DNA of 20,267 nucleotides from a virus. The stretch's first letter is position 1; each line of letters starts with the position of its first letter. Positions 3,695-18,966 of this stretch are shown here, piece by piece. The stretch is from the IMG/VR virus record IMGVR_UViG_3300044984_001391, positions 1-20,267 of that record, one strand, 5' to 3'. A program made the position numbers and the translations under genes. The notes below the pieces were generated by a model, which was not told where the DNA came from, made no database searches, and worked only from the letters and a program-made list of their open reading frames with translations.

Positions 3695-4135
3695 ATGCAA
3701 CAACAACAATTTATGCCCTTTGGTTGGCCTACACTTGGGTATTTACCACTACCGCCTATTATAGATGACAAAGACTTATTTATTAATAGTATTGTTAATG
3801 GCGGAACTCCAGGTCCAGCTGGACCTCCAGGCCCTCCCGGCCCTCCTGGTACTCCTGGATTAGTACCGGTTACTATAATTACTACAACGCCTTATGCAGC
3901 TGCATTAACTGACTACTATCTAGCTGTAGATGTAGCTGGGCCTGCTAGTATAGTACTACCAGTTGCCCCTGTTGGCACAGTCTTTGTTGTAAAGGACATA
4001 GATGGTGATGCTAATACCAATCCCATAACAATCACGGCTAGTACTACCATTGACGGTGCTGCTAGTGCAACAATCAACTCACCCTATGGTAGCCTAACTT
4101 TTATATTTAACGGCACCGAGTGGAATATTATCTAA
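3695..4135 (+). CDS. Collagen-like virion protein, paralogue A
   Basis: 146 aa. The N-terminal 35 residues are Trp/Pro/Leu-rich and lack a signal peptide. Residues 37-55 form six Gly-X-Y triplets (GTPGPAGPPGPPGPPGTPG), enough to seed a collagen triple helix, so the protein is probably a trimer. Residues 60-146 are a beta-rich domain with the pattern DYYLAVD, LP, VVKDIDG, NPITIT, TIDG, PYGSLTFIFNGTEWNII, shared with the next two genes. The SD AAAGGAG (3684-3690) is close to consensus, 4 nt before the ATG. Collagen-like segments are common in phage tail fibres and head or tail decoration proteins, so a surface-exposed structural role is inferred; the target is unknown. Confidence 0.85.
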   Translation: MQQQQFMPFGWPTLGYLPLPPIIDDKDLFINSIVNGGTPGPAGPPGPPGPPGTPGLVPVTIITTTPYAAALTDYYLAVDVAGPASIVLPVAPVGTVFVVKDIDGDANTNPITITASTTIDGAASATINSPYGSLTFIFNGTEWNII

Positions 4136-4144
4136 GGAACAATT

Positions 4145-4543
4145 ATGTCATACACAAACAACCCAACATCAATCCTAGCCGGTACAGGCATTACAGTAAC
4201 GCCAACAGCTGGCACAGGTGCTAATACTATTACAATCAGCGCAACGGGTACTCCTGTTCAAGCTGTACAAATAGCTGTAGCTACACCTGTTACGGTAACA
4301 AACGCTGATGACGTAGTAAGTGTTGAAGTACCTGGCCCAGTTGCTGTGGCAGTAGATTTACCTGCTGGCACAACTGGACAATTATTTTACGTTAAAGATG
4401 GATTAGGTTTAGCAGCACCAGCAACACCTATTACTATTACACCAGCTGCTGGAACTATTGATGGATCAGCAACCGCTACTATTGACACACCATATGGAGC
4501 ATTAACCCTAGTATACAGTGGTGTACAGTGGTTGATATTATAA
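4145..4543 (+). CDS. Beta-rich virion protein, paralogue B
   Basis: 132 aa without collagen triplets. The first 35 residues (SILAGTGITVTPTAGTGANT) have a fibre-shaft-like Gly/Thr/Ile pattern. The remaining domain matches the C-terminal half of paralogue A: LPAGTTGQLFYVKDGLG, then PITITPAAGTIDG, then TPYGALTLVYSGVQWLIL. An AAGGA Shine-Dalgarno precedes the ATG, and the gene lies 9 nt after gene A. The shared C-terminal domain with a varied N terminus suggests duplication followed by swapping of the attachment part. Structural role inferred; no catalytic motif. Confidence 0.82.
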   Translation: MSYTNNPTSILAGTGITVTPTAGTGANTITISATGTPVQAVQIAVATPVTVTNADDVVSVEVPGPVAVAVDLPAGTTGQLFYVKDGLGLAAPATPITITPAAGTIDGSATATIDTPYGALTLVYSGVQWLIL

Positions 4544-4544
4544 T

Positions 4545-5021
4545 ATGAGCTATACCAGACAACCTAATTCAGTATTAGCAGGCCGAGCATTAGTTCAAAA
4601 TCCTCCCGCTAATACAACATCACCTCCAGGAGTACTAGCCGTTAAACTTGATGCTAATATTGCTACTAATACTGAACTAGGAGTAGTGCAAGTAGGGGCT
4701 GGTTTAAGTGTTACACCTCTTGGAGTACTGTCTGTTAATAGTGGAATAGGGCTATTTCCAGTAAAAATAGCCAATGCTAATTATACTGCACTATCTACAG
4801 ATTATTATATTGGTGCTAATACTAGCGGTATAACTATTACGCTGCCAGCCGGCATTACCGGCAAGATTTACACGGTAAAAAATCAAGTAAATGGAAATAT
4901 AACTCTGGTAGGTACTGGCGGACAACAAATTGATAGCCAAAACCATAAGAACATAGGTTCTAATGATTGTGTTATTGTACTATTTAACGGTACTCGTTGG
5001 AGTATAATCTCAAAGGAATAA
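4545..5021 (+). CDS. Tail-fibre-like virion protein, paralogue C
   Basis: 158 aa. It starts with MSYTRQPNSVLAGRALVQ, parallel to the start of paralogue B (MSYTNNPTSILAGTG). The middle has TELGVVQVGAGLSVTPLGVL, a phrase typical of phage fibre shafts. The C-terminal domain is the most diverged of the three: LPAGITGKIYTVKNQVNG, QQIDSQNHKNIG, VIVLFNGTRWSIISKE. The ATG follows the previous stop by 1 nt (TAATATG). No signal peptide. Probably a virion surface or fibre protein expressed with A, B and the Dps-like gene from one mRNA. Confidence 0.82.
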   Translation: MSYTRQPNSVLAGRALVQNPPANTTSPPGVLAVKLDANIATNTELGVVQVGAGLSVTPLGVLSVNSGIGLFPVKIANANYTALSTDYYIGANTSGITITLPAGITGKIYTVKNQVNGNITLVGTGGQQIDSQNHKNIGSNDCVIVLFNGTRWSIISKE

Positions 5022-5022
5022 T

Positions 5023-5460
5023 ATGGATGATCTAAAACTGGCGTTAAAAAACGCTTTTGCAACAACTTATGCGTTCTTAGTGAAAGCGGAAAACTTTCAC
5101 TGGAACGTAACAGGCGTGGACTTTTTACAGTACCACGAATTATTTGGAAAAATATACGACGAGGTAGATGATGAACTTGACGATTTTGCTGAGCATCTTC
5201 GTGCTTTACGTTGTTGGGTGCCTGTTAGTTTCTCACAACTTGCGGAGTACTCGTCGATTGCAGACACTGTGGAAGTGTTACCTAAAAATGAAATGCTGCG
5301 CACGCTATACGTTGACAACGGAAAAGTGCACGAAGACCTTCTAGCTGCCTATGCTCTTGCAGAAGAGTATGGTGAACAAGGTTTGTGTGCATTTTTAAGT
5401 GAACGAATTGATGCCCACCGTAAACATGGATGGATGTTATACTCCTCAATGGAGCTGTAA
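5023..5460 (+). CDS. Dps-like ferritin (DNA/iron protection protein)
   Basis: 145 aa with the Dps four-helix layout. Known Dps proteins form 12-mers that oxidise and store iron using H2O2, and some bind DNA. Compared with E. coli Dps, H51 corresponds to His26 (FHWNVTG), H63 to His38 (QYHEL), D78 to Asp53 and E82 to Glu57 (DDFAEHLRAL). The D67 position is Gly42, so one iron ligand is altered unless Asp46 takes over. The C terminus SERIDAHRKHGWML is typical of Dps. The Lys-rich N-terminal tail of E. coli Dps is absent, so DNA binding is uncertain. The gene starts 1 nt after paralogue C with AAAGGA upstream, and ends at the bidirectional terminator. It may protect phage DNA or bind iron in the infected cell. 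Confidence 0.85.
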   Translation: MDDLKLALKNAFATTYAFLVKAENFHWNVTGVDFLQYHELFGKIYDEVDDELDDFAEHLRALRCWVPVSFSQLAEYSSIADTVEVLPKNEMLRTLYVDNGKVHEDLLAAYALAEEYGEQGLCAFLSERIDAHRKHGWMLYSSMEL

Positions 5461-5463
5461 AGA

Positions 5464-5499
5464 AAAAAGCCCTTAACTAGTAATAGTTAAGGGCTTTTT
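5464..5499. terminator. Bidirectional terminator between convergent dps-like gene and phoH
   Basis: A perfect 16-bp stem (5464-5479 with 5484-5499) with a 4-nt loop, carrying A5 on the left and T5 on the right, so each strand reads a GC-containing hairpin followed by U residues. It lies between the ends of two convergent genes (stops at 5460 and 5502), and serves both transcription blocks. Confidence 0.93.
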
Positions 5500-5501
5500 G
5501 T

Positions 5502-6206
5502 TTAATTGTTATAAGCTAAGATAACTTGCTTACACATTTGTGATCTGACAATATCTTCATCACGGAAACTTACTATTTCCACACCCGGTATGTGCTGTAG
5601 TCGCTTTACAGCATCAAGCAATCCAGTATCTGGAATATCGGTTTGTTTAGGGTCTCCACTTAATATAACCTTGCAATTTTTACCAATACGGCTCAGCATC
5701 ATCTTAAACTCAGTTTTTGTTAAGTTTTGTGCTTCGTCAACTAAGATAATGCAATTATCAAAGCTTGCTCCACGCATAAATCCAAGCGGCTTAGGTTCAA
5801 TATTTTTTGCTTTGAGTGCATAGTCATAGAAACCTTTGCCTAGAGTGCGCGTAAACACTTGGTCGAATGGTTGAAGGTAAGGTGCGTATTTTTCATCAAT
5901 CTCGCCAGGCAAGAAGCCTAGACCACGACCTGTTTCCACGTTTGGTCGTGTTAATATAATTTTTGAAATTCGGCGATGATAAAGTTCTCCTGCTGCGTAA
6001 CTGGCTGCAACGTATGTTTTACCAGTACCTGCACTACCTATACCAAAAATAATTTCAGAAGACTTAATAGCTTCCAAATATTCGCCTTGAATATAGTTTA
6101 GTGGTTTAACATCCCTGAAACCAAACTCTACTTGATTTGGAGTACTGCTGTGAGATGCTGTTTGCGTTTGAACTTTGCGGGCTTTTTTGCCTGAGGAACT
6201 TGCCAT
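5502..6206 (-). CDS. phoH: PhoH-like P-loop ATPase
   Basis: 234 aa. PhoH proteins are RecA-like-fold NTPases often carried by aquatic phages; some have RNA helicase or ribonuclease links, and the phage role is unsettled. Walker A GSAGTGKT is at residues 57-64 and Walker B IILVDEAQN at 153-161. Family signatures NVETGRGLGFLPGEIDEKY (about 89-107) and ILSGDPKQTDIP (181-192) are present. The first 30 residues are Ser/Lys/Thr-rich and probably disordered. AAGGAAA precedes the ATG at a good distance. The gene has its own near-consensus promoter just upstream but could also be reached by read-through from the left-pointing operon, since no terminator is seen between them. Confidence 0.95.
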   Translation of the reverse strand: MASSSGKKARKVQTQTASHSSTPNQVEFGFRDVKPLNYIQGEYLEAIKSSEIIFGIGSAGTGKTYVAASYAAGELYHRRISKIILTRPNVETGRGLGFLPGEIDEKYAPYLQPFDQVFTRTLGKGFYDYALKAKNIEPKPLGFMRGASFDNCIILVDEAQNLTKTEFKMMLSRIGKNCKVILSGDPKQTDIPDTGLLDAVKRLQHIPGVEIVSFRDEDIVRSQMCKQVILAYNN

Positions 6207-7751: not shown

Positions 7752-9134
7752 TTATCTATACTGGCTTTGTATCATTAACACGTGTTTTTGATCAGAACCT
7801 AATCCTCGTAAAATTCGGGTATTATCTACGTTTTGTTGCCCAACATATATCTCTTTTGAAGTATAAAATTTGGCATCTGGAATAACTGCAGCTGTATATG
7901 CAGCGTAGCCTTGAGGTATAACTGCAAGACTCTTAATATCCGTGGACCCTGCTAGTTCGTTAGAGTCAGCTGCTCGTTTAACACCATTAGTTTGCTGTAA
8001 CGCAGCTTGAGTGTCCAATACTGGTTGTTCGGAGTAACTATTAGCCAGTGAGTTATCTACCCTAGCTTGTACTGCTATAGGTTGTAGCTGTACCTCTTGT
8101 GTAAAGTAAGCAGCAGCTTTTTGTGCAGCACTAACAGCTAATGGGTTGGTTGCTGTGTTGTTACTACTAAACTCTGTTGTAGTTAAAGTTTGTTGCGATG
8201 CAAATAGTGAATTAGCTACTTGTTGCTGTGCAGCTTGTACTACCATGTTTTGCGTAGCTTTATCAGCATCTTGCACTCTTTTAATAGTATTAAGTATATT
8301 AGTTAAATTAGACTTTGGCTTTTCTTCTTTAACAACTGAATCTTTAACAACTTGAGGTATACCATCTGGTACCATTATAGTGCCGGATGTGCTAAGGTCT
8401 ACTCCACCTATACTAATAGTGGTTTCACCTGTTTTGGTTGTGTCCGTTGGTGTAGCTGTTATAGGAGCTGTATAAGTTATAGCAGTAGGTGCAGCAAGCA
8501 CTGGCTTATTAGCTTGAACAACTTGTGTATAACGTAAACTAAGATTTACATCTGAGACTTCTGGTCCATAGTATCCAGCCCAATAACCTACGTCATAGCT
8601 GCTAATACTAAGGTTTAACTTACCAAGTGTGGCTGCTTGATAAGGACTAGCATATGTACGAGAACCAGAAAACTTTGTCCACTGCATTATACTGTAACCA
8701 TAATCGTATAGGTCGCTTTCAAGTAAACTACCACTGCTGCTATACAACCCAACCCTAAAAGTCAGTGGATCTACTCCGCCTGCCCAACCAGCTTGATTGT
8801 TGTTGATATTAGAGTTTTTTACGGTCCAGCTATAGTTATATCCAGTCACTTGCAGGTCAACACCAGAAAGTTCAAGTGCTTTATTAACTGCTATGGTTTG
8901 AGCTAGAGTGCTGCGACCATAACCAAAAGTTATGCCGGAACCATCTGCACCAACATTTGGACACCAACCACCACTGTACCCTGCCCAAGTTCTTGTAGGT
9001 TGCAGTACATAACAACCTTCCCAGGTAGTTTGATTTATTAAGTTTGGGGTACTTAAATCATCTTGAGCATTAGAAAGCTTTGAAAATAATAGCCCCAAGC
9101 AAAGCACCAATACCAAGCTTCTTATAAGTATCAT
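7752..9134 (-). CDS. Sec-exported Trp/Tyr/Gly-rich protein, unknown function
   Basis: 460 aa. The signal peptide MILIRSLVLVLCLGLLF...SNA is probably cut after residue 23. Residues about 35-205 are rich in Trp, Tyr and Gly (TWEGCYVLQPTRTWAGYSGG, ALELSGVDLQVTGYNYSW, DVGYWAGYYGPEV), a composition seen in beta-sandwich carbohydrate- or surface-binding domains. The remainder is Ala/Gln/Thr-rich, likely helical and repetitive, with a C-terminal LRGLGSDQKHVLMIQSQYR. I recognise the N-terminal part as recurrent in aquatic phage genomes but know no function. The start overlaps the upstream gene by 65 nt; the signal peptide at the first Met supports it. Probably periplasmic or outer-membrane-associated during infection, or virion-bound. 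Confidence 0.8.
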   Translation of the reverse strand: MILIRSLVLVLCLGLLFSKLSNAQDDLSTPNLINQTTWEGCYVLQPTRTWAGYSGGWCPNVGADGSGITFGYGRSTLAQTIAVNKALELSGVDLQVTGYNYSWTVKNSNINNNQAGWAGGVDPLTFRVGLYSSSGSLLESDLYDYGYSIMQWTKFSGSRTYASPYQAATLGKLNLSISSYDVGYWAGYYGPEVSDVNLSLRYTQVVQANKPVLAAPTAITYTAPITATPTDTTKTGETTISIGGVDLSTSGTIMVPDGIPQVVKDSVVKEEKPKSNLTNILNTIKRVQDADKATQNMVVQAAQQQVANSLFASQQTLTTTEFSSNNTATNPLAVSAAQKAAAYFTQEVQLQPIAVQARVDNSLANSYSEQPVLDTQAALQQTNGVKRAADSNELAGSTDIKSLAVIPQGYAAYTAAVIPDAKFYTSKEIYVGQQNVDNTRILRGLGSDQKHVLMIQSQYR

Positions 9135-9918
9135 CTTTTGCTTCCATTTCTAGTTTAGGCAATTTTTGTGGATTAGCATCCCATGCAGCCTTAGCTTCTG
9201 TGCCAATTTTACCTTCATATGGACAAGGTGTACCAGCAGCTACCATTGCGTCCCATACTCTGCGATCTTGACACATTGTGGCAACTGCAGCAACTTTCAT
9301 ACCCATGTCGTATAGGGTTTTACTTAGCTTTAAGCGTTCGCAGTTTAAGTCACGGACTGTACCACCACCTGATACACCAAAAATTTGTGTTTGTACGCTG
9401 CCACTTGTGCCTGTTGTACACAAGTCTGCATTTCCACCGCTCATCATAGCAGGTGCAATTGCAGTTGGTGGTGGTTGGATTACTTTTTGAGTAATAAAAG
9501 TATCATTGATATTACGGTTGGTAACATCGCCGCTGTTAATATTTTGATTAACATTTGTGTTAGTATTGCTGTTAATGGTACTAGCAGTTGTGTCGTTAAT
9601 ATTGCGATTTGTTACCTCGCCACTGTTAACGTTATTATTAGTATAAGTCATAGACCCACTAGTAATATTATTGTTGTTGTTGGTTAATGTACCACTGTTA
9701 ACGTTGTTATTAGTATTTACGGAAGTACTAATGTTATTGTTGGTACTTGTACTGGTAACATTAGTGTTATTGTTATTAGTTATTGTGCCACTATTAACGT
9801 TATTGGTATTTACCGTACTAGTACTAGTAGATGTGCTACTAGTAGTAATATTACTATCTTGTGCACTTGCTAACACACAAGATCCGGCTAACAATGTCAA
9901 GATTAAAATCTTTTTCAT
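9070..9918 (-). CDS. Sec-exported Asn/Thr-rich repeat protein with conserved C-terminal domain
   Basis: 282 aa. The signal peptide is MKKILILTLLAGSCVLASA (cut after about 19; not a good lipobox). Residues 20-145 are almost only Asn, Thr, Ser, Val, Ile and Gly, with loose repeats (NVNSGTLTNNN, NVNSGEVTNRNINDT, NINSGDVTNRNINDT) that could stack as a beta-solenoid. Residues about 150-250 form a different domain with Cys and Trp (LCTTGTSGSVQTQIFGVS, TVRDLNCERLKLSKTLYDMG, MCQDRRVWDAM, AGTPCPYEGKIG). The protein ends in a short hydrophobic segment (GIGALLGAIIFKAF). The SD is GGAG. It lies 1 nt after the endolysin. Function unknown; export plus solenoid suggests a surface, envelope or virion-fibre role. 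Confidence 0.8.
   Translation of the reverse strand: MKKILILTLLAGSCVLASAQDSNITTSSTSTSTSTVNTNNVNSGTITNNNNTNVTSTSTNNNISTSVNTNNNVNSGTLTNNNNNITSGSMTYTNNNVNSGEVTNRNINDTTASTINSNTNTNVNQNINSGDVTNRNINDTFITQKVIQPPPTAIAPAMMSGGNADLCTTGTSGSVQTQIFGVSGGGTVRDLNCERLKLSKTLYDMGMKVAAVATMCQDRRVWDAMVAAGTPCPYEGKIGTEAKAAWDANPQKLPKLEMEAKDDTYKKLGIGALLGAIIFKAF
9481..9865 (-). repeat. Low-complexity Asn/Thr/Ser repeat region
   Basis: The part of the exported gene coding for loosely periodic N-x-N-S-G-x-(V/L/I)-T-N units. At the DNA level it is a run of AAC/AAT/ACT/AGT codons with many imperfect direct repeats; the two NRNINDT units are the clearest. It is prone to slippage and length variation. Confidence 0.65.
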
Positions 9919-11274: not shown

Positions 11275-11673
11275 TTAGCCAAGATTTGGTTTAACTGGCC
11301 AAGTAACACCGGTTATTACTCCCATTTCATCAATCACTGGAGTAATATTAGATTCAGTAATGTTTCTTAGTTCCTGTCTATAGCCGTCCCACGCAGCACA
11401 CCACTCCGATCCTCGGATAGCTCGTATGTCTGCACCCTGTGTCCAATCAGTTTGTTGCAAATACCAATTACGTATTTCTCGCACGCAGCGCATAGGCTCA
11501 TCAGCTTCAAGCTCAACTACTTTAGCATCTAATTCAGTTTTGCTAGGCCTTACTGTATTTGTATCATACCAAATAATCTGTTCGTAATCATTGTCACGAA
11601 CTGAGTATTGGGCTCCTGGATATAATGCAGAAATTGCTTCTGCGTATCCGATAAATCTTCTCATCCCTATCAT
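11275..11673 (-). CDS. Tail-assembly-chaperone-like protein
   Basis: 132 aa. The C-terminal half holds the pattern MRCVREIRNWYLQQTDWTQG, then GSEWCAAWDGYRQELRNIT, ending in WPVKPNLG. This R-x-x-R-N-x-x-L-x-x-T-D-W...W..YRQ.LR layout is that of the phage tail assembly chaperone/tail-fibre-assembly group, often encoded beside fibre genes; such proteins help fold or attach fibres. The start ATG 11673 has AGGAA at a good distance, whereas the ATG three codons later sits too close to its purine run. It begins 1 nt after the last 'MAIIFPN' paralogue, consistent with acting on those proteins. The link to particular fibres is inference. Confidence 0.8.
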   Translation of the reverse strand: MIGMRRFIGYAEAISALYPGAQYSVRDNDYEQIIWYDTNTVRPSKTELDAKVVELEADEPMRCVREIRNWYLQQTDWTQGADIRAIRGSEWCAAWDGYRQELRNITESNITPVIDEMGVITGVTWPVKPNLG

Positions 11674-11674
11674 G

Positions 11675-12139
11675 CTATGTTCCTATTTCATAAAGTCTAA
11701 GATAGTGTTGTGTACTACCACTGTTGTAACTACCTAACCAGGCTGTACCTTGATGTGCCAAGCAACTTGCTGTAAAAGTATACGTACCTACTGCAGCTGC
11801 TTGATGTATAAAAGTTTTTTCAAAGTACCCTATGTGTAAGCTAGCGGACCCTATATGTCCACCATACATAACTTGCGAACCATTACACAGTATTCTATGG
11901 TAAACCAAACACCACGATCCTTGTCCATAATCATTACGATGATTTACCATATATTCAACCATGATACGGTTATTAGCTTTACTGGTAGTAATTGAGGTAG
12001 TTAAAACGTCTACCCAGGCAGATGTAGTTGCAGTAGTACTGACTGTAGTAGTGTTATCTACAAATTGTATTACACTATTTGGTACATTAATCTTGCTGCC
12101 AGCAGCTTCAATGCTGCGATTTGGGAATATAATAGCCAT
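11675..12139 (-). CDS. Beta-rich tail protein, 'MAIIFPN' paralogue 1
   Basis: 154 aa. The N terminus MAIIFPNRSIEAAG...NSVIQFVDN and the C terminus HYLRLYEIGT are shared in pattern with the next two upstream genes. The middle is Thr/Ser/Val-rich (TTTVSTTATTSAWVDVLTTS) and then aromatic and variable. No signal peptide or TM. The predicted fold is all-beta, of the kind seen in phage tail receptor-binding domains. The start overlaps the stop of the previous paralogue by one base (TAATG), with GGAG 11 nt upstream. Likely a virion or fibre-tip component; binding target unknown. Confidence 0.8.
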   Translation of the reverse strand: MAIIFPNRSIEAAGSKINVPNSVIQFVDNTTTVSTTATTSAWVDVLTTSITTSKANNRIMVEYMVNHRNDYGQGSWCLVYHRILCNGSQVMYGGHIGSASLHIGYFEKTFIHQAAAVGTYTFTASCLAHQGTAWLGSYNSGSTQHYLRLYEIGT

Positions 12140-12621
12140 TATACTGCAATCTCCGTAAGTCTAATATAAGCTACAGCATCATTATCGGTACCGGTGTTAA
12201 ATCCAGAATTAGCGGCTGCATAACTCCAACCTCTGACTTTATATGTATGTGGACCAACAGATCCTGGAAAATGGCGCCCCACTCTGTGCACATGCCTAAT
12301 AGTGCTAGTTAAGTCCCCTACATATCCTGTATAACTAATCTGTGCTCCTGACCCTACATGCACAATATCCATGTAATAAAGATTCCAGCTGCCGTCACCT
12401 ACTTCAGCATACCTATTGTCGCTATGGTGTTCAATTAAAACACAGTTACTAGCATTGGTTAATGTAATACTACCACTAGTAAACCAATCTACTGCACTAG
12501 TACTTGAAGTATTCATTACTGAGGTAGTTACTGTGTGTACTGTTTGAATAATTCGACCTGGGGCGGAAATACGGCCACCTACTTGACTTAGTGATTGTCC
12601 GTTGGAAAAATTGATTGCCAT
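12139..12621 (-). CDS. Beta-rich tail protein, 'MAIIFPN' paralogue 2
   Basis: 160 aa: MAINFSNGQSLSQVGG...GRIIQTVHTVTTSV at the start and DAVAYIRLTEIAV at the end. The middle (SDNRYAEVGDGSWNLYYMDI, TIRHVHRVGRHFPG) differs strongly from its neighbours, while the scaffold positions (VIQ.V, SITLTNASN, the final RL.E) are kept. It is translationally coupled on both sides by single-base TAATG overlaps, with GGAG at the same 11-nt distance as paralogue 1. Inferred receptor-binding or fibre-associated protein. Confidence 0.8.
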   Translation of the reverse strand: MAINFSNGQSLSQVGGRISAPGRIIQTVHTVTTSVMNTSSTSAVDWFTSGSITLTNASNCVLIEHHSDNRYAEVGDGSWNLYYMDIVHVGSGAQISYTGYVGDLTSTIRHVHRVGRHFPGSVGPHTYKVRGWSYAAANSGFNTGTDNDAVAYIRLTEIAV

Positions 12622-13097
12622 TATGCTGCAAACTCCATTAATCTTATTATTGATACACCGTCACTGTTAGCACCGCTATTTAAATAAAATGTACCGTTAG
12701 TCGGGTAATTATATCCGGCCATAGTATAAGTCTGCGTTGCTGTAGTACCTGGACTATGTAAATACTGCTTTTGATACATTCCAATAACGTGTCTCCAAGT
12801 ACCATTCCAACCACTACGCATTAACTCGTTATTGGCAGCATCAAACAAGGAAATAATACCAAGACTCCAAGTACCTTGAGTAGAATCTTGCCTAAAGGTA
12901 GTCTGCATGTATATTAAAATTTTGTTTGAAGCATTAGTCGGAGTAATACTGGCCGATCCGAGATTGTTTCTTGTGCTCCAGTTATTGAAACTTAGGGTAG
13001 AAGTGATTCGTTCTTCTACAACCTGAACCACGGATCCTGGATAGGTAAATCCAGGAGTAACTTCGGAAATAGTATTATTAGGGAATATTATAGCCAT
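12621..13097 (-). CDS. Beta-rich tail protein, 'MAIIFPN' paralogue 3
   Basis: 158 aa: MAIIFPNNTISEVTPGFTYP, then GSVVQVVEERITSTL, then SASITPTNASNKILIYMQ, ending in SIIRLMEFAA. Overall layout is the same as paralogues 1 and 2; the 5' end of the DNA (ATGGCTATAATATTCCC) is almost the same as in paralogue 1. The start overlaps the halogenase 3' end by 10 nt and has no clear Shine-Dalgarno, so it probably depends on translation of the halogenase gene. No catalytic motif. Virion or fibre-tip role inferred. Confidence 0.78.
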   Translation of the reverse strand: MAIIFPNNTISEVTPGFTYPGSVVQVVEERITSTLSFNNWSTRNNLGSASITPTNASNKILIYMQTTFRQDSTQGTWSLGIISLFDAANNELMRSGWNGTWRHVIGMYQKQYLHSPGTTATQTYTMAGYNYPTNGTFYLNSGANSDGVSIIRLMEFAA

Positions 13098-14596
13098 TTT
13101 GTGTACTTATTAAAATTTTTAATAAACTCTGTGTTGTCTATGGAATTTTCTGCGACTTTTTTCATGTTGTGTTCATGAACTAACCACACGTCATTAGCAA
13201 TACTTCGTCTACCATAAAAGTCTAGGTCTTTTTTTGCATTTGTAGGAGTCAAGTGCCCTAAACCAGCCATAACCCAATTATACAAACCAGCACCCGCATA
13301 TCCGTGATACCCTTCAAAGTCTGTCGAATGCAGCTGTCTTGTTTTTTGAAGCTCTAGTAAATTTTTAACAGCATCAGTAAGCGTTTCGCCAGTTTGCATC
13401 CAGCGCCAAAATTCACTATCAGTTCTTTCACCTGTGTAGTGAAGTACCAAAAAGTCCTTGAAATCATCGTACATTTTTGCAGTGCGACGATTATAAATAT
13501 TGATACCACCAGTATTACAGGTTTCTTCTTGCGTTTCCCTTAGGTACTCAAAAATAAAACTTTGTAACTGCACAATAGTGCTATGTATACTTGTGGCTTC
13601 TAGCGGTTCTGCAAAAGCTGCACTAAGACCAGTCCATAAGACGTTCTTAACCCATGCCTTTTCTGTTCTGCCTGTATCGAATTTTAAAAATCTAATAGGT
13701 TCGACCGCGTGCCCTAGTACTGTTTCAATCTCTTGTTGTGCTTGCTCATTGGTTATAAATCTATCGTCAAATACATAACCACAGCCTTTTCGGCTTTGTA
13801 CAGGTATTTGCCACATCCAGCCTGATTTTTGTGCCCAAGCAGTAGTAACTGGCTCAATCTTTTCATTTTCTTTGTGTGGTACAATAAAGGGCATAGCAGT
13901 ATTAACTGGCAAATGCTCTCTATAGCTACGCCAATTGTTGCTCATAGGTTTTAAAAATATTCTTGCAAAACCTGAACAATCTATAAAGAAGTCTCCACAT
14001 ACTTCTAAGCCGTCTTTACAAGACACAGACTTGGCATAGCCTTTTTCATCTAAATTGATGTTGACTATTTCTGAGTCAATATGTTGTACAGCATCTCCGC
14101 ATATTTTCTTGAAGTACTTTCCAACTAAGTGTGCGTCAAAGTGATAAGCATGCCCTCGGGTATTATCAAGACCTGTTTCAGTAGTATATTTGAAAGATGA
14201 TGAGTTGTGATCTATTAAATATCCGTTAAAACTAGCTTTATGAAAAGGTATGTTTTGCTCCAAGGCATGAAGTAGCATATAATCACATGAACCTGAACTA
14301 TGGGTTCCGTCTATAGGACCATAGTAAGTATGTCCTACATTACGCCAATCTTTGTGCTTTATCCCAAGTTTAACAGTTGCACCTGTTTCACGGATAAAAT
14401 CTTCTTCGTTACAACCATAATCCCATGAGTTGCCTTGTATTATATCTGTCAAGTACCCGGTACTGCCTTCTCCAGCACCAACAATACCAATCTTACTTGA
14501 TTCTATAACCACAACTTCATGGTCTGGCTGAACTTTGGTGATCATTAGTGCTGCCAACCATCCGGCTGTGCCGCCACCACATATTACAATTTTCAT
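13088..14596 (-). CDS. Flavin-dependent tryptophan-halogenase-family protein
   Basis: 502 aa, normal for the family. These enzymes use FADH2, O2 and halide to make hypohalous acid, passed to an active-site Lys that halogenates an aromatic substrate. FAD-binding GGGTAGW is at residues 7-13. Lys76 in TVKLGIKHKDW fits catalytic Lys79 of PrnA. The halogenase signature WMWQIP is at 260-265, followed by GCGYVF. Glu333 in AEPLEATSIH fits catalytic Glu346 of PrnA. So all hallmark residues are intact and the gene looks functional. It sits inside the tail-fibre operon, 2 nt after a fibre-related gene and overlapping the next one. It needs reduced flavin from the host. Cyanophage Syn10 encodes a characterised relative (VirX1). 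The substrate here is unknown; free indole/aromatics, a host surface molecule or a fibre protein are all possible. Confidence 0.93.
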   Translation of the reverse strand: MKIVICGGGTAGWLAALMITKVQPDHEVVVIESSKIGIVGAGEGSTGYLTDIIQGNSWDYGCNEEDFIRETGATVKLGIKHKDWRNVGHTYYGPIDGTHSSGSCDYMLLHALEQNIPFHKASFNGYLIDHNSSSFKYTTETGLDNTRGHAYHFDAHLVGKYFKKICGDAVQHIDSEIVNINLDEKGYAKSVSCKDGLEVCGDFFIDCSGFARIFLKPMSNNWRSYREHLPVNTAMPFIVPHKENEKIEPVTTAWAQKSGWMWQIPVQSRKGCGYVFDDRFITNEQAQQEIETVLGHAVEPIRFLKFDTGRTEKAWVKNVLWTGLSAAFAEPLEATSIHSTIVQLQSFIFEYLRETQEETCNTGGINIYNRRTAKMYDDFKDFLVLHYTGERTDSEFWRWMQTGETLTDAVKNLLELQKTRQLHSTDFEGYHGYAGAGLYNWVMAGLGHLTPTNAKKDLDFYGRRSIANDVWLVHEHNMKKVAENSIDNTEFIKNFNKYTKWL

Positions 14597-14598
14597 CT

Positions 14599-14949
14599 TT
14601 AATCCGTTTTTGCCTTAGGAGGTACAGTGCTAGGGTCTACTTCTATTAGTGCAAATTTAAAAGTTTTGTTAGTCTTGTTATTATACAGGAATAAATCTTC
14701 TTCGCCTTCAACAATGGTATAGTCTCCTATACCATTGCTTAACTGCAAGTCGTTTGTGTAAATATTTCTCCAACGCAACGCAGAAGTTCCTAGGTCATAA
14801 GTATTAGTTACAGTTGGTGAAAATGTTGCACCTATTTGGTCAACAACATTGTATGCACCCCACTGCGACCTAGCAGAACTCCAAATATACTTATTATTTC
14901 CTAGAGTAATTATCTGCCCGTTTGAAGGGCTACTTGGAAAATCAATCAT
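14599..14949 (-). CDS. Small fibre-associated structural protein
   Basis: 116 aa. The N terminus MIDFPSSPSNGQIITLGNNKYIW is a pattern seen at the start of many phage fibre or baseplate proteins. The middle has YDLGTSALRWRNIYTNDLQL, a repeat-like unit frequent in phage tail fibres, and then GIGDYTIVEGEEDLFLYNNK with KFALIEVDPSTVPPKAK at the end. No catalytic residues or signal peptide. The start ATG overlaps the S74 fibre stop by 4 nt (ATGA), and GGGAG lies upstream. The halogenase begins 2 nt after its stop. Virion role inferred from these sequence patterns and position. Confidence 0.82.
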   Translation of the reverse strand: MIDFPSSPSNGQIITLGNNKYIWSSARSQWGAYNVVDQIGATFSPTVTNTYDLGTSALRWRNIYTNDLQLSNGIGDYTIVEGEEDLFLYNNKTNKTFKFALIEVDPSTVPPKAKTD

Positions 14950-16481
14950 TTATTTACTCCCGCTAGCCGCATTAATTCCTCAATTTGTTCCTGTTGTTGT
15001 TTAATAGCTTCAATCAAAACTGGAACTAATTTTTCATATGAGACTGTTTTATAAGACTGCCCATTGAGTTCAATGGATTCTGTTACAATTTCTGGCATAA
15101 CGGACTCAACCTGATCAGCAAGTACTCCGTAATCACGTTTTCCAGCTTTTGCTTCAATATGCTGAATACCACGCTTCCAGTTAAAAGTTCCACCATCAAG
15201 CTTTTTAAGAATACCGATAGGATCCTGTATAACTTCAAAGTTTTCTTTTAGCCTTGGGTCTGAGTAAGCAGTAACGTTACCCGCTGCAACCATATTACCG
15301 GATGGGTCGGAGTACCAGGACCAAGCAGTTCGTGACCAACCACCAAGACCAACATAGCCGTCAGCTCTTATGCCAAATTTAATAGCGTAAGCATCATTCC
15401 ATAAAGTCATGCCAGCTAGGTTAGCGTCCCCGGTACCTGTTGCACGACACACAAAGCTACCTTTTGTAGCACCACTGTCTTGCGACATAGACATGCTAAG
15501 TGTTGCACCTGTAAGTAGTCCTGTAAGTGTACCACCTGATAAATTACCGGCAGGTCCTTGTATACCTTGTATACCTTGAATACCTTGTGGGCCTTGCGGC
15601 CCAATTGGGCCTACGCCAGGGGAAGCATCAACCCACTGAGATGTGGTACCGTCATTATAGAAAACATAGGTTCTTCCTACTGTAGAATCCCACCATAGGC
15701 TTCCTGAAACAGGAGATGCAGGAGCATTATCACTAATCGTTATAATACTGCCACTAGAACCTGAAGAGGCTGCCGTAATGCGGCCTTTTGAGTCTACAGT
15801 AATATTTGCTGCTGTGTAGCTACCTGCTGTAACTCCGCTGTCTGCTAACGCGGCAGTTCCTGCAATATTAATGTTCCAAGTTGCGTAACCACCGCCACCA
15901 CCACCACCACCAGCGGGGCCTGGCCAACCGATATCTGCCCAAGTTGTAGCATAGTCTGTGGCAGAAGACTTGACCAGTACCATGTTTGTGGAGCCACCAG
16001 CAGCTACTCCAGGGCCTGGTGCTCCAGGTGCTCCGTCGGCTCCAGGTGCTCCGTCGGCTCCAGGTGCTCCGTCGGCTCCAGGCATACCGGGTGCTCCGTC
16101 AGCCCCGGTCATACCAGTCATACCAGTCATACCATCGGCACCGTTCAAGCCAGGCAGACCATCAGCACCAGCTGGCCCTTGTGGGCCTGCCACACCAGTA
16201 TCCCAGGTTCCATCACCTCGCCAAAATGTGGATACTGAGGCGTTGGTACCGCTATTCAGACGTGATACAGGCAGGTTAGCTGATAGGGAAGCTGCTGAAC
16301 CTGTGATACTAATACCCCAGGTTCCACTAGCACCTGTACCAGAAGTTGGGGTATATGTACCAGTATCAAGTCCCCAGGAATCTGTACCTAACTTTTTAAG
16401 TAATCCGCTAGTACCACTTAATGCAGCAATAGCGGTTAAATCGCCATCTATTGGCTGATTTGGTGATATAAATAAACTCAT
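14946..16481 (-). CDS. Collagen-like tail fibre with C-terminal S74 intramolecular chaperone
   Basis: 511 aa. The N terminus (MSLFISPNQPIDGDLTAIAA, then GLLKKLGTDSWGLDTGTYTP) is a standard fibre start. Gly-X-Y collagen triplets occupy about 99-157 and 291-312, and a Gly8 run is near 191-198. The C-terminal domain from about 405 is Peptidase S74: Ser407 and Lys412 in AYSDPRLKENF form the Ser-Lys dyad that auto-cleaves the chaperone after trimer folding. FNWKRGIQ and YGVLADQVESVMPEIV follow, then a helical QQQEQIEELM coil. If cleavage occurs before Ser407, the mature fibre is about 406 residues. AAGGAG precedes the ATG. This is a trimeric adhesin candidate for host recognition. Confidence 0.92.
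   Translation of the reverse strand: MSLFISPNQPIDGDLTAIAALSGTSGLLKKLGTDSWGLDTGTYTPTSGTGASGTWGISITGSAASLSANLPVSRLNSGTNASVSTFWRGDGTWDTGVAGPQGPAGADGLPGLNGADGMTGMTGMTGADGAPGMPGADGAPGADGAPGADGAPGAPGPGVAAGGSTNMVLVKSSATDYATTWADIGWPGPAGGGGGGGGYATWNINIAGTAALADSGVTAGSYTAANITVDSKGRITAASSGSSGSIITISDNAPASPVSGSLWWDSTVGRTYVFYNDGTTSQWVDASPGVGPIGPQGPQGIQGIQGIQGPAGNLSGGTLTGLLTGATLSMSMSQDSGATKGSFVCRATGTGDANLAGMTLWNDAYAIKFGIRADGYVGLGGWSRTAWSWYSDPSGNMVAAGNVTAYSDPRLKENFEVIQDPIGILKKLDGGTFNWKRGIQHIEAKAGKRDYGVLADQVESVMPEIVTESIELNGQSYKTVSYEKLVPVLIEAIKQQQEQIEELMRLAGVNK
15557..15601 (-). repeat. 9-bp tandem repeat in the second collagen segment
   Basis: Five units of the form CCTTGNNNN; the first two are identical (CCTTGTATA) and the third differs by one base. 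They code for IQG/PQG triplets of the fibre. In-frame unit gain or loss would change collagen length without disrupting the protein. Confidence 0.7.
16027..16080 (-). repeat. Three perfect 18-bp tandem repeats in the collagen segment
   Basis: GGTGCTCCGTCGGCTCCA occurs three times in a row (16027-16044, 16045-16062, 16063-16080). Each codes for two Gly-X-Y triplets (GADGAP). Perfect identity, including third codon positions, means recent expansion by slippage or recombination. Confidence 0.85.
16108..16134 (-). repeat. Three perfect 9-bp tandem repeats (MTG triplets)
   Basis: GTCATACCA three times in a row, coding for the fibre's MTGMTGMTG triplets. Another recent in-frame expansion close to the 18-bp set. 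Confidence 0.8.
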
Positions 16482-16489
16482 AATACTCC

Positions 16490-16912
16490 TTAAGTGTATT
16501 GTACATCAAACCAGCAATCGGCACTTCCTAAAGTTTTAGTAGGTCCTGTAGATGAATTGCAAATAACTATTCCAGCTGTAAATGCCCTACCAAAAGGTGC
16601 CGTATCAAAAGCAAAATTAGATTGTGGAGGTACGTAAAATATTATTTTTGGCACAGCAGTGTCTGCGGGTAAACTGGCTGAGTCGTGTATTTGTACAAAC
16701 TGTCCTAAGGTTTTAGAATTATACCCTGTAATAGAGTATAGAGTACCAGCGCCTGTTTTAACTAGTAGTGATGCTGCATAAGCTGTTGTAGTAGCATTAT
16801 TAATACTAGCTAGTAAGCTTACAGGGATAGCTGGTTGGTTAGATGCCAGAACAACACGAGCAGTGTCGTCGCTGGCTAAACCAATGTTTTTATCTTCTGC
16901 TCGTGTAGTCAT
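16490..16912 (-). CDS. Small virion structural protein, unknown
   Basis: 140 aa. It begins MTTRAEDKNIGLASDDTARV, then has LLVKTGAGTLYSITGYNSK, FVQIHDSASLPADTAVPKII and PPQSNFAFDTAPFGRAFTAG, ending CNSSTGPTKTLGSADCWFDV. This beta-rich sequence pattern recurs in tail or baseplate-associated phage proteins; I know no function. The start follows the previous stop by 1 nt (TAATATG) with no strong SD, so translation is probably coupled. Its stop lies 8 nt before the S74 fibre start. No signal peptide, TM or catalytic motif. Confidence 0.78.
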   Translation of the reverse strand: MTTRAEDKNIGLASDDTARVVLASNQPAIPVSLLASINNATTTAYAASLLVKTGAGTLYSITGYNSKTLGQFVQIHDSASLPADTAVPKIIFYVPPQSNFAFDTAPFGRAFTAGIVICNSSTGPTKTLGSADCWFDVQYT

Positions 16913-16913
16913 A

Positions 16914-18377
16914 TTATAAAGTTCCCCACTCTAAAGGTACGCGGAAGAACTCTGAACCACCGGCGCGTAATACATACAACCACGCAGCCCCGTCTGGAGT
17001 CTTTACATACTTTAGCCTTTTACCGTCGTAAGCGGCTGGGTTAGCGTAAGGAACCGTTGCCAGTGGTTCTAACTCTCGCGTTGATAGGTCTAACGCGTAC
17101 AGTCTGGTAGTACTTTCTTTTTGTACTATAAGCTTACGTTGACCGTCCCACATAGTGGAACCAGCACCAGTTGTGAATGTTTCTACTCCGATTTTCCATG
17201 TAGGAGTAACCCAAGAATTTGTGCCAATATTATAAATATAAAAGTTGGCGCTTGCATTACCTCGCATAGAAAATAGGCTAAAAGCTCCTAGTGCGTCGGG
17301 CCAAACTAAATTAGCGCCAGCTCCAGGGGCAGCAGGCATTGAAGCCAATGTGGTCCAGGTAGTGGCGGTACTACCGGTATTAAGATCAAGTCTATACATA
17401 GCACTACTAGTACTTCCTGGCTGATAGTACAGGAAGTCACTGCTAGGTTGTATCTTATAGACGCTAGTAGTATCTGGTGCAATTGTCCAGTTACCAGTAT
17501 TAGCGTTGCCAGTTACAGCAGTAGCCAAAGTTAGAGTATTACCAGTATTGGAAGCAATTCGGCGCTTTTGTCCGACCCCAGTACCACTAATTATTACAAC
17601 ATCACTATTAGCATATTGGTTAGTAGCCCAACTACTTACAGTATCAACAAGCGTTGATGTTGTAGAAGAAGTTACGCTTCCTTGAGGTAATTCTACTATG
17701 TAGGTATCACCAATTGCAGGAGTGCCGCCGAAAGCAGTTCCAACAACTAAAGTGCTGCCGTCTGTAACACTACTTACATATCTGCGCTGACCCTGATAAG
17801 TTCCGCTAGTTAAACGTACTTGCAAACCAACCATTTTATCTGCAAACGCGGTTGTTGTGTTTATGTCTTTTAAGGTAGTACTAGTGCTACCGACTGTTAA
17901 AATACCGGTTTCAATTATAGCAGGGATATCAGCTGGGTTAATTGTTACAAGCGTGGCGCCATAATCTGCGGCTACAGGTAGTACCGGAGTAATGGTTGTA
18001 GCTACCCAAGGTGGGCAAGTTACGCCACTTACAACTACGTTAGTACTATTTAAGTTAAATATCTGCCAACTGGTTAATGCAGCACCGTGCGCAATAATTA
18101 AAATATTGCGTATATTATCATGAGTAATAGTCAAACCACGATTACCGCTAGTTAGTGTGGCTAAAAATTGCCATCCGTGGTTCCAGGTATCAAATCGCAA
18201 TAAACTAGTAGTGCTGGCACTAGTTGCTGTTGTGCCATACTGGATAACATAATAGATATGACGGCTACCATCATATGTGCAATCCGCTCCGTGATAGCTT
18301 ATGACTGGACAAAATGGTAACCACTGCCATGCCGGTGTATCACTGCCTTTTGAGTAATTATATTGAATATTTGGCAT
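16914..18377 (-). CDS. Kelch-like beta-propeller virion protein
   Basis: 487 aa. Blade-like repeats flank a two-copy insert. Early and late parts have the spacing of kelch blades (HIYYVIQYG, LLRFDTWNHGWQFLATL; later MYRLDLNTG, WTTLASMP, FYIYNIGTNSWVTP, RLYALDLSTRELEPLATVP). The middle, about residues 160-305, has two related modules: SGTYQGQRRYVSSVTDGSTL and SGTGVGQKRRIASNTGNTL, each followed by a G-D-T-Y or N-W-T-I strand. No signal or enzyme residues. The start overlaps the previous stop by one base (TAATG), with GGAG upstream. A propeller among fibre genes suggests an adhesin or baseplate-attached protein, possibly carbohydrate-binding; this is inference. Confidence 0.8.
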   Translation of the reverse strand: MPNIQYNYSKGSDTPAWQWLPFCPVISYHGADCTYDGSRHIYYVIQYGTTATSASTTSLLRFDTWNHGWQFLATLTSGNRGLTITHDNIRNILIIAHGAALTSWQIFNLNSTNVVVSGVTCPPWVATTITPVLPVAADYGATLVTINPADIPAIIETGILTVGSTSTTLKDINTTTAFADKMVGLQVRLTSGTYQGQRRYVSSVTDGSTLVVGTAFGGTPAIGDTYIVELPQGSVTSSTTSTLVDTVSSWATNQYANSDVVIISGTGVGQKRRIASNTGNTLTLATAVTGNANTGNWTIAPDTTSVYKIQPSSDFLYYQPGSTSSAMYRLDLNTGSTATTWTTLASMPAAPGAGANLVWPDALGAFSLFSMRGNASANFYIYNIGTNSWVTPTWKIGVETFTTGAGSTMWDGQRKLIVQKESTTRLYALDLSTRELEPLATVPYANPAAYDGKRLKYVKTPDGAAWLYVLRAGGSEFFRVPLEWGTL

Positions 18378-18682
18378 TATTTAATTCTCCAGCGTTGCAT
18401 TGCAACATTTACGTTAATATTAGAAGCTATCATGGCATTTTCTCTGCCATCTACTGTGCTCCAAGAACCAGCGCTATACCAAGGCTCTGTTGAGGAGTTT
18501 AAAGTTCCACTACTATTTCTGTTATATACAATTGAAGTAACTGAACTATCCACAACTACGCGCATACGATCGTTAGAATCTTTCGCGTATGTAGTAGATT
18601 TTAATATTAATTTCAACATTGAAATAATACCGTCCTGCTTTAATTCAGTAGCTAAATTTTCAAAAGCATTTCTTAAACTCAT
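18377..18682 (-). CDS. Small baseplate/fibre-associated protein
   Basis: 101 aa. MSLRNAFENLATELKQDGII starts a helical N terminus, followed by LKSTTYAKDSNDRMRVVVDSS, a beta-rich part with EPWYSAGSWSTVDGRENAM and a final IASNINVNVAMQRWRIK. I recall similar 'RNAFENLATE...MRVVVD' proteins next to fibres in other phages, with no function. The start overlaps the upstream gene's stop by 4 nt (ATGA). No signal or TM. Structural role inferred. Confidence 0.78.
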   Translation of the reverse strand: MSLRNAFENLATELKQDGIISMLKLILKSTTYAKDSNDRMRVVVDSSVTSIVYNRNSSGTLNSSTEPWYSAGSWSTVDGRENAMIASNINVNVAMQRWRIK

Positions 18683-18966
18683 GCTGCTACCCCATCTTCA
18701 AACCAAAAAGTAAAATCGGTACCACTACTGCCTAGCCCTGTTTGAATCCACAGATATTTACTCAAACCAACTGGCTGAGTAGTGGATATAACTACAGGAG
18801 TATCATTGCTGCCTGCCGAAAAATAGTCAATATTGTTTAAAGCGGTTTTATAGAATAGTTTACCATCTGCGTAGTTAAGTGCTAGCTCACCATAATCTAA
18901 ATCTGTGACTAGTGGCGTCTTAGCCACTACCGACGATTTCTTAAGAACGATTTTACTTGTTGCCAT
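18679..18966 (-). CDS. Small virion protein with fibre N-terminal motif
   Basis: 95 aa. The first 45 residues, MATSKIVLKKSSVVAKTPLV then TDLDYGELALNYADGKLFYK, are the attachment-type motif frequently found at the N terminus of T4-like phage fibres; here it is followed by a short domain only (TTQPVGLSKYLWIQTGLGSS, DFTFWFEDGVAA). It may be a free-standing connector between baseplate and fibre or the remnant of a longer fibre. AGGGG lies upstream of the ATG. It follows the large fibre gene after a 48-nt gap with a hairpin. Confidence 0.82.
   Translation of the reverse strand: MATSKIVLKKSSVVAKTPLVTDLDYGELALNYADGKLFYKTALNNIDYFSAGSNDTPVVISTTQPVGLSKYLWIQTGLGSSGTDFTFWFEDGVAA

Follow-up and report, generated by a model that had tools for sequence, protein, structure and literature searches.

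Flavin-dependent halogenases (FDHs) encoded by viruses have been treated in the literature searched only as auxiliary metabolic genes (AMGs), or in terms of metabolites or the capsule (PMC2984593, PMC10452541, PMC7824862). VirX1 of cyanophage Syn10 (6QGM), characterised in vitro, halogenates many small aromatics (PMC8407142), and no natural substrate of a viral halogenase is established in the literature found. In the cyanophage halogenase/2OG/carbamoyltransferase cluster described by Iyer et al. (2021), to whose type loci L006-L010 of the present survey belong, phage halogenases also lie near structural genes. Among characterised tryptophan halogenases, the HxF motif stacks on the indole and the ATxxxx motif contacts it (PMC8269204), and MibH and ChlH act on peptide-bound Trp rather than free Trp (PMC8269204, PMC12518702); few FDHs modify folded proteins (PMC12518702). 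In a related flavoenzyme superfamily, QhpG dihydroxylates Trp in its operon partner QhpC (PMC7876137).

The halogenase gene considered here lies in a viral tail-fibre operon on IMG/VR record IMGVR_UViG_3300044984_001391, of which positions 1 to 20,267 (20,267 nt) form the whole stretch analysed, hereafter the window. It is surrounded by the following features, in which MAII denotes the 'MAIIFPN' proteins.

11275..11673, minus strand: tail-fibre assembly chaperone, Phage_tail_APC (PF16778, E=7e-9; phrog_4912 tail fiber assembly, E=1e-8).
11675..12139, minus strand: MAII3, paralogue, 154 aa, 29% identical to MAII1, with a positional orthologue elsewhere.
11912..11938, minus strand: R-x-D-x-x-x-G-x-W motif of MAII3, RNDYGQGSW.
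12139..12621, minus strand: MAII2, paralogue, 160 aa, 31% identical to MAII1, with a positional orthologue elsewhere.
12385..12414, minus strand: R-x-D-x-x-x-G-x-W motif of MAII2, RYAEVGDGSW.
12621..13097, minus strand: MAII1, TNF/C1q-like small fibre-tip protein, 158 aa (phrog_6942 tail fiber, E=2.7e-6; jelly roll).
12867..12893, minus strand: R-x-D-x-x-x-G-x-W motif of MAII1 (R69-W77), RQDSTQGTW.
13088..14596, minus strand: flavin-dependent halogenase, full length, 502 aa (PF04820, phrog_2928 and fold).
13598..13600, minus strand: active-site Glu333 codon (translation AEPLEAT).
14369..14371, minus strand: catalytic Lys76 codon (translation TVKLG).
14599..14949, minus strand: small fibre subunit directly upstream of the halogenase, 116 aa.
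14946..16481, minus strand: long fibre subunit with collagen repeats and an S74 endosialidase-chaperone domain (PF01391, E=1.7e-8; PF13884, E=2e-10).
16490-16912, 16914-18377, 18377-18682 and 18679-18966, minus strand: further operon genes, with weak or no matches except the last.

Judged by signatures and fold, the open reading frame at 13088-14596 (minus strand) is apparently an intact PF04820-type flavin-dependent halogenase. Its whole length is covered by matches to PF04820 Trp_halogenase (E=2e-96) and PHROG 2928 (E=1.4e-102), and its PDB matches are PyrH, Tar14 and Thal. The hallmark residues that a sequence-only reading had called intact were all found: GGGTAGW, the FAD dinucleotide motif GxGxxG, at residues 7-13 (identical in 62 of 68 relatives); Lys76, kept in 68/68 aligned phage relatives and 59/59 bacterial relatives; the WxWxIP motif as WMWQIP at 260-265, within GWMWQIP at 259-265, with both Trp kept in all 68 aligned phage relatives; and Glu333, kept in 66/68 and 59/59, respectively. 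The AlphaFold (AF2) model has a pLDDT of 94.6, and its VIA Z is 45.1 against PyrH (2wes, over 479 residues), 39.6 against MibH and 37.7 against VirX1. A dN/dS of 0.05 for the halogenase pair L011/L012 indicates strong purifying selection, which, together with the intact catalytic residues, rules out a decayed gene; the same selection and a gene order recurring in ten distinct phages exclude chance as the source of the observation.

PyrH, Thal, RebH and PrnA (PF04820) share with this enzyme a common fold (Z 41-45), GGGTAGW, Lys76, WxWxIP and Glu333, but the identity is ~27%, no natural-product cluster accompanies the phage gene, and the substrate pocket is different. Of the motifs that mark Trp halogenases, the first (ATFSxx or AT(V/I)PxL) is replaced in the window enzyme by GSTGYL, as aligned to PyrH, and the second (HxF, here HPF) by GPI; the region corresponding to the third (QxxQ, or QxxxQ in group B) has no alignment to PyrH. 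The HxF site reads P-I/L in 63/68 phage enzymes, and the Trp-stacking Phe is replaced by I, L or V in 64/68 phage relatives and by I in 59/59 bacterial relatives. Since this Phe has given way to Ile or Leu, free tryptophan is an unlikely substrate of the window halogenase, and assignment as a free-Trp halogenase was set aside with the first two motifs missing. Such an altered pocket would fit non-metabolic targeting. MibH, SrpI and ChlH are FDHs whose target is a Trp inside a peptide; they differ from the phage enzyme in belonging to RiPP clusters with precursor peptides, and MibH carries an APF motif.

In the window, probable fibre genes are followed on the minus strand by the collagen/S74 fibre, the 116-aa fibre subunit and the halogenase, and then by MAII1, MAII2, MAII3, the assembly chaperone, a phrog_4952 gene (possibly a spanin) and a GH19-like endolysin. 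From the 116-aa subunit through the chaperone the spacing is 2, -10, -1, -1 and 1 nt, so that the genes overlap or abut; the wedging of the halogenase described earlier, with a 2 nt gap upstream and a 10 nt overlap with the first MAII gene, is thereby confirmed. The 14946-16481 fibre also matches fibre PHROGs down to E=4.5e-26. Among the four distal genes only 18679-18966 clearly resembles fibre proteins (E=4e-6 to fibre N-terminal PHROGs), and all of the genes in 16490..18966 are probably fibre- or baseplate-associated. Transcription units were inferred from gene spacing alone: promoter-like sites in the window are fewer than the shuffled mean, terminator-like sites fall within about one sd of theirs, and no RNA families or tRNAs were found in it. 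The 20 kb window shows no flavin reductase, and the window ORFs scanned include no carbamoyltransferase, methylase or 2OG enzyme. The enzymes accompanying the halogenases of Iyer et al. are thus absent from the window cassette, whereas carbamoyltransferase and 2OG enzymes occur at other loci. Elsewhere in the window, two adjacent proteins of 460 and 282 aa with apparent signal peptides, one of them N/T/S-repeat-rich, are encoded at 7752-9918; the endolysin lies on one side of them and small membrane-protein-like ORFs on the other. The other half has a tandem of three small genes at 3695-5021 that look like structural-protein genes, two of them with weak PHROG matches (baseplate/fibre and unknown). 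The regions 197-2239 and 5023-6206 encode PhoH, a ferritin/Dps-like protein and a ribonucleotide reductase that shares 70% identity with the adenosylcobalamin type of Caudoviricetes MW202615.

IMG/VR was seeded with the halogenase and the neighbouring genes were labelled by profile; an independent second seeding used per-position alignments of MAII3, MAII2 and MAII1. The order halogenase, three MAII genes, chaperone recurs in the window and in L002, L003, L005, L011, L012, L016, L017 and L032. A tenth phage, L189, retains 127 nt before MAII1 that encode MLDNTEFSRRYA followed by a stop, the C-terminus of a halogenase (LDNTEF), so that ten distinct phages including the window carry the cassette, nine of them complete. 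An EVDPSxVPPK-like domain, represented in the 14599-14949 subunit by the C-terminus NGIGDYTIVEGEEDLF...EVDPSTVPPK, closes the fibre gene upstream of the halogenase in nine of nine complete cassettes. MAII seeding returned the known cassette contigs, a near-identical copy of L012 on a 211-kb contig, and the remote homologues L190 and L191. Four MAII-seeded contigs, L189 among them, start inside or just before the MAII genes. No MAII triplet without a halogenase was found, the sole close matches without one stopping at a contig edge. The proposed survey for a halogenase beside 'MAIIFPN' paralogues therefore came out in favour of the association, since every triplet with upstream sequence has a halogenase. 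A chaperone-seeded survey gave mostly unrelated fibre modules. A literature search of limited coverage found no description of a halogenase/MAII/chaperone cassette or of fibre halogenation.

Within the cassettes, gene overlaps reach 23 nt and the halogenases diverge to a pairwise identity of 48% (48-73%), and the flanks vary, with lysis genes in the window, NUDIX-gp14-gp13 neck genes in L002/L005/L189, other ORFs in L003, and 2OG-oxygenase arrays in L016/L017/L032. The earlier view that the embedding is unlike a metabolic cargo gene holds to this extent: halogenases closely related to that of the window never leave the MAII triplet/chaperone unit, while the flanks turn over. Halogenase distances correlate with those of MAII1, MAII2, MAII3 and the chaperone (Mantel r 0.87, 0.83, 0.79 and 0.81; p<=0.0005), as would also be expected from plain vertical inheritance of the cassette block. 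Each MAII is nearest to the same-position MAII of other phages in 197/216 comparisons, so that the three are positional orthologues. As far as comparison of the sequences can show, halogenase, tip and chaperone genes form a conserved cassette, which is apparently mobile. A strict clade of cassette halogenases is unsupported: a 21-row clade (SH-aLRT 93) also includes L018, L059 and tandem L020-type enzymes.

The description of the neighbours as three variable beta-rich paralogues and an assembly chaperone agrees with the paralogue identities (29-31% to MAII1), the jelly-roll model and the PF16778 match. The AlphaFold (AF2) model of the MAII1 monomer is a jelly roll of ten predicted strands (pLDDT 83), with VIA Z of 13.9 against the Pgp3 C-terminal domain, 13.5 against the PLTL lectin and 12.7 against the BC2L-C lectin, and a range of 13.9-12.4 against TNF-like lectins and Pgp3. 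PLTL and BC2L-C (TNF/C1q-like trimeric lectins) and Chlamydia Pgp3 thus resemble MAII in fold, but are just 5-14% identical. The MAII proteins are predicted from this model to be TNF/C1q jelly-rolls that form tail-fibre tips. MAII1 had no match among cultured phages.

Across 27 aligned MAIIs only M1, I3, Q25, I51, R69, W77, G99 and E155 are invariant, and Q25 is common to remote TNF-like phage proteins as well. R69, D71 and W77 are almost confined to cassette MAIIs: W77 is present in 101/101 high-scoring cassette MAII rows (a redundant set) as against 1/41 low-scoring homologue rows, and two TNF-like paralogues encoded at other places in the L012 genome lack the three residues. The invariant R-x-D-x-x-x-G-x-W motif, which was examined in phage homologues, is a candidate modification site or cassette-specific structural motif. 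Given its near confinement to cassette MAIIs, W77 stands out as the candidate acceptor, a choice qualified by the fact that those MAIIs form one clade.

Outside the cassette branch, the position of the halogenase is more variable. In cultured S-SRM01 the gene lies between fibre genes and an adhesin-tip-like gene, and in cultured Syn10 (VirX1) and S-CREM1 it follows fibre-like genes. VirX1 is a viral FDH with the same catalytic residues, and its gene precedes a small-ORF array; it differs from the window halogenase in being about 24% identical, in having YPFGP instead of YGPID, in the absence of a MAII triplet and in occupying a distant branch. The halogenases of S-PM2, Syn1, Sf-CH3 and S-B64 (35% identity or less) lie away from fibre genes, those of the first three in AMG regions, and the halogenases of HTVC008M and S-SSM7 adjoin neck genes with 2OG or sugar genes. 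The sequence-only reading had taken a position away from fibre genes in related phages as a sign against its proposal; such positions do occur among distant halogenases (<=35%) but not among close relatives. The association with fibres is thus tight in the cassette branch, frequent elsewhere and not universal.

In other phage clades, between one and five halogenases accompany numerous 2OG-Fe(II) oxygenases near gp13/gp14. The islands in L007, L025, L044-L046 and L055 pack as many as five halogenases and some ten 2OG-Fe(II) oxygenases into about 12 kb, and in L007 and L025 GroES-like (100-102-aa) and GroEL-like (554-564-aa) genes stand between the island and NUDIX-gp14-gp13. Four tandem paralogues of about 230-240 aa with a 'HIDCFT' N-terminus (L006:8155-10988) recur in halogenase/2OG islands; the one scanned, L006 9574-10296, has no Pfam match. 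L020-type halogenase pairs adjoin genes that read as an RfaE-like kinase, an epimerase and a cupin; in L022, L042 and similar loci, tandem halogenase pairs beside neck genes are followed by genes that read as an RfaE/HldE-like kinase, an epimerase and a cupin. A second triplet-plus-halogenase design, without MAII, is seen at L018:4440-6109, where three other small fibre-like paralogues and then two halogenases all follow an EVDxSxVP fibre. In L066, L078, L081, L084 and L085, a different phage group, the halogenase comes directly after a ~360-aa gene where a probable fibre module ends; in L066 this gene is a beta-1,4-glycosyltransferase by PHROG, and enzymatic decoration of fibres is possible at these loci too. 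A bacterial sister clade, 36-41% identical and with the same PID motif, occurs in Devosia, Pelagibacterium and other Proteobacteria in operons of GH4 glycosidases and ABC transporters (12/41 scanned neighbours are GH4). At L203-L282 (Devosia, Pelagibacterium, marine Alphaproteobacteria, Colwellia) the PID-motif halogenases stand with GH4 and oligopeptide/sugar ABC transporters, and their substrate is probably not free Trp.

Several readings of the cassette enzyme can be weighed against this background. The enzyme could modify a component of the host surface, aromatic or glycan-linked, or else a glycan encoded by the phage, in receptor alteration or superinfection exclusion, and its adjacency to fibre tips would then reflect a shared receptor theme. 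The GH4/ABC context of the bacterial sister clade, which suggests an ancestral non-protein substrate, points this way, as do phage halogenases beside sugar-nucleotide genes (S-SSM7, L020 type) or the beta-1,4-glycosyltransferase of L066, the resemblance of MAII to lectins and the capsule decoration raised by Iyer et al. for the cyanophage cluster (PMC7824862). However, the cassette contains no sugar gene, FDHs require an electron-rich aromatic ring, and a surface-modifying gene would have no reason to stay strictly ordered with the chaperone and the three tip paralogues, which makes this reading unlikely. Slightly less likely still is an AMG whose product is a halogenated small molecule. This is the standing literature view for cyanophage prnA (PMC2984593, PMC10452541, PMC7824862), VirX1 takes many small aromatics (PMC8407142), and AMG regions contain the copies of S-PM2, Syn1 and Sf-CH3; against it stand the lack of pathway genes in the window cassette, the absolute linkage to the tips and the loss of the Trp-stacking Phe.

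A purely positional linkage, in which the fibre region acts as a hotspot for insertion and the halogenase is inherited with the block free of any functional tie, would account for the correlated distances through vertical inheritance, and many T4-like contigs do have halogenase islands, 2OG arrays and sugar genes gathered between their fibre genes and neck genes. It is nevertheless improbable, given an order kept at 48-73% halogenase identity despite replaced flanks, overlaps of up to 23 nt and no MAII triplet without a halogenase. The least probable reading is a flavin monooxygenase that hydroxylates peptidyl Trp or Tyr of the fibre in the manner of QhpG or LodB despite its halogenase signatures. 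QhpG and LodB, which serve tryptophylquinone maturation, belong to a related flavoenzyme superfamily but are monooxygenases. The window protein has a weak match to the QhpG model (1.9e-4), its relatives match LodB, and QhpG acts on the Trp of a partner protein (PMC7876137); yet the profile similarity is sub-threshold (NCBIfam QhpG/LodB scores of about 20-35 bits against cut-offs of 240-900), and Lys76, Glu333 and WxWxIP are all kept.

The reading favoured here, held tentatively and at a little less than an even chance, is that the window halogenase halogenates the co-encoded fibre tips. Its basis at the sequence level is an intact catalytic machinery, conserved gene order, start and stop codons that overlap, and divergence that is coordinated, and the gene is supported as part of a self-contained fibre-tip cassette that would be dedicated to the fibre module. 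Modification of the tips is favoured because ten phages carry an ordered unit that is kept while the flanks change, because halogenase distances track those of the positionally orthologous MAIIs and the chaperone, and because the MAIIs have a TNF/C1q lectin fold with the cassette-specific R69/D71/W77. It is favoured further because the pocket disfavours free Trp, which MibH and ChlH likewise spare, because cultured S-SRM01, Syn10 and S-CREM1 repeat the fibre-adjacent theme, and because the related flavoenzyme QhpG modifies Trp inside a partner protein. Several points weigh against it: shared ancestry confounds the W77 contrast, the Mantel correlations are explicable by vertical inheritance, the halogenases of sister phage clades (L018, L020-type) occur without MAII, those of the bacterial sister clade lie in GH4/ABC operons, no flavin reductase is visible in the window, and few FDHs modify folded proteins (PMC12518702).

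If the fibre tips are indeed the substrate, the gene product would be a functional halogenase of the two-component type that draws, late in infection, on FADH2, O2 and halide supplied by the host. Aromatic residues of the co-translated tip proteins, or of adjacent fibre proteins, would be halogenated during folding or assembly, the invariant Trp of R-x-D-x-x-x-G-x-W being the leading candidate, and the halogenated tips may be tuned in receptor binding or stability. The proposal has its likeness in QhpG acting on a partner-protein Trp and in MibH, SrpI and ChlH acting on peptidyl Trp. More speculatively, the system may be the first virus-encoded halogenation (or other oxidation) of aromatics in a virus's own receptor-binding protein, with the tip Trp as acceptor and the cassette mobile as a unit.

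The cassette provides a specific, testable candidate substrate for a viral halogenase, namely three tip proteins with one invariant Trp each, and the cultured phages S-SRM01 and Syn10, whose halogenase genes lie in or beside fibre genes, are pointed to for the substrate question. If the proposal is true, receptor binding by phages would be tuned post-translationally in a new way, by halogenation, and the cassette enzymes would be natural protein halogenases whose protein substrates are linked to them. Taken at the level of gene content and order, the cassette suggests that phages may chemically decorate their own tail fibres.
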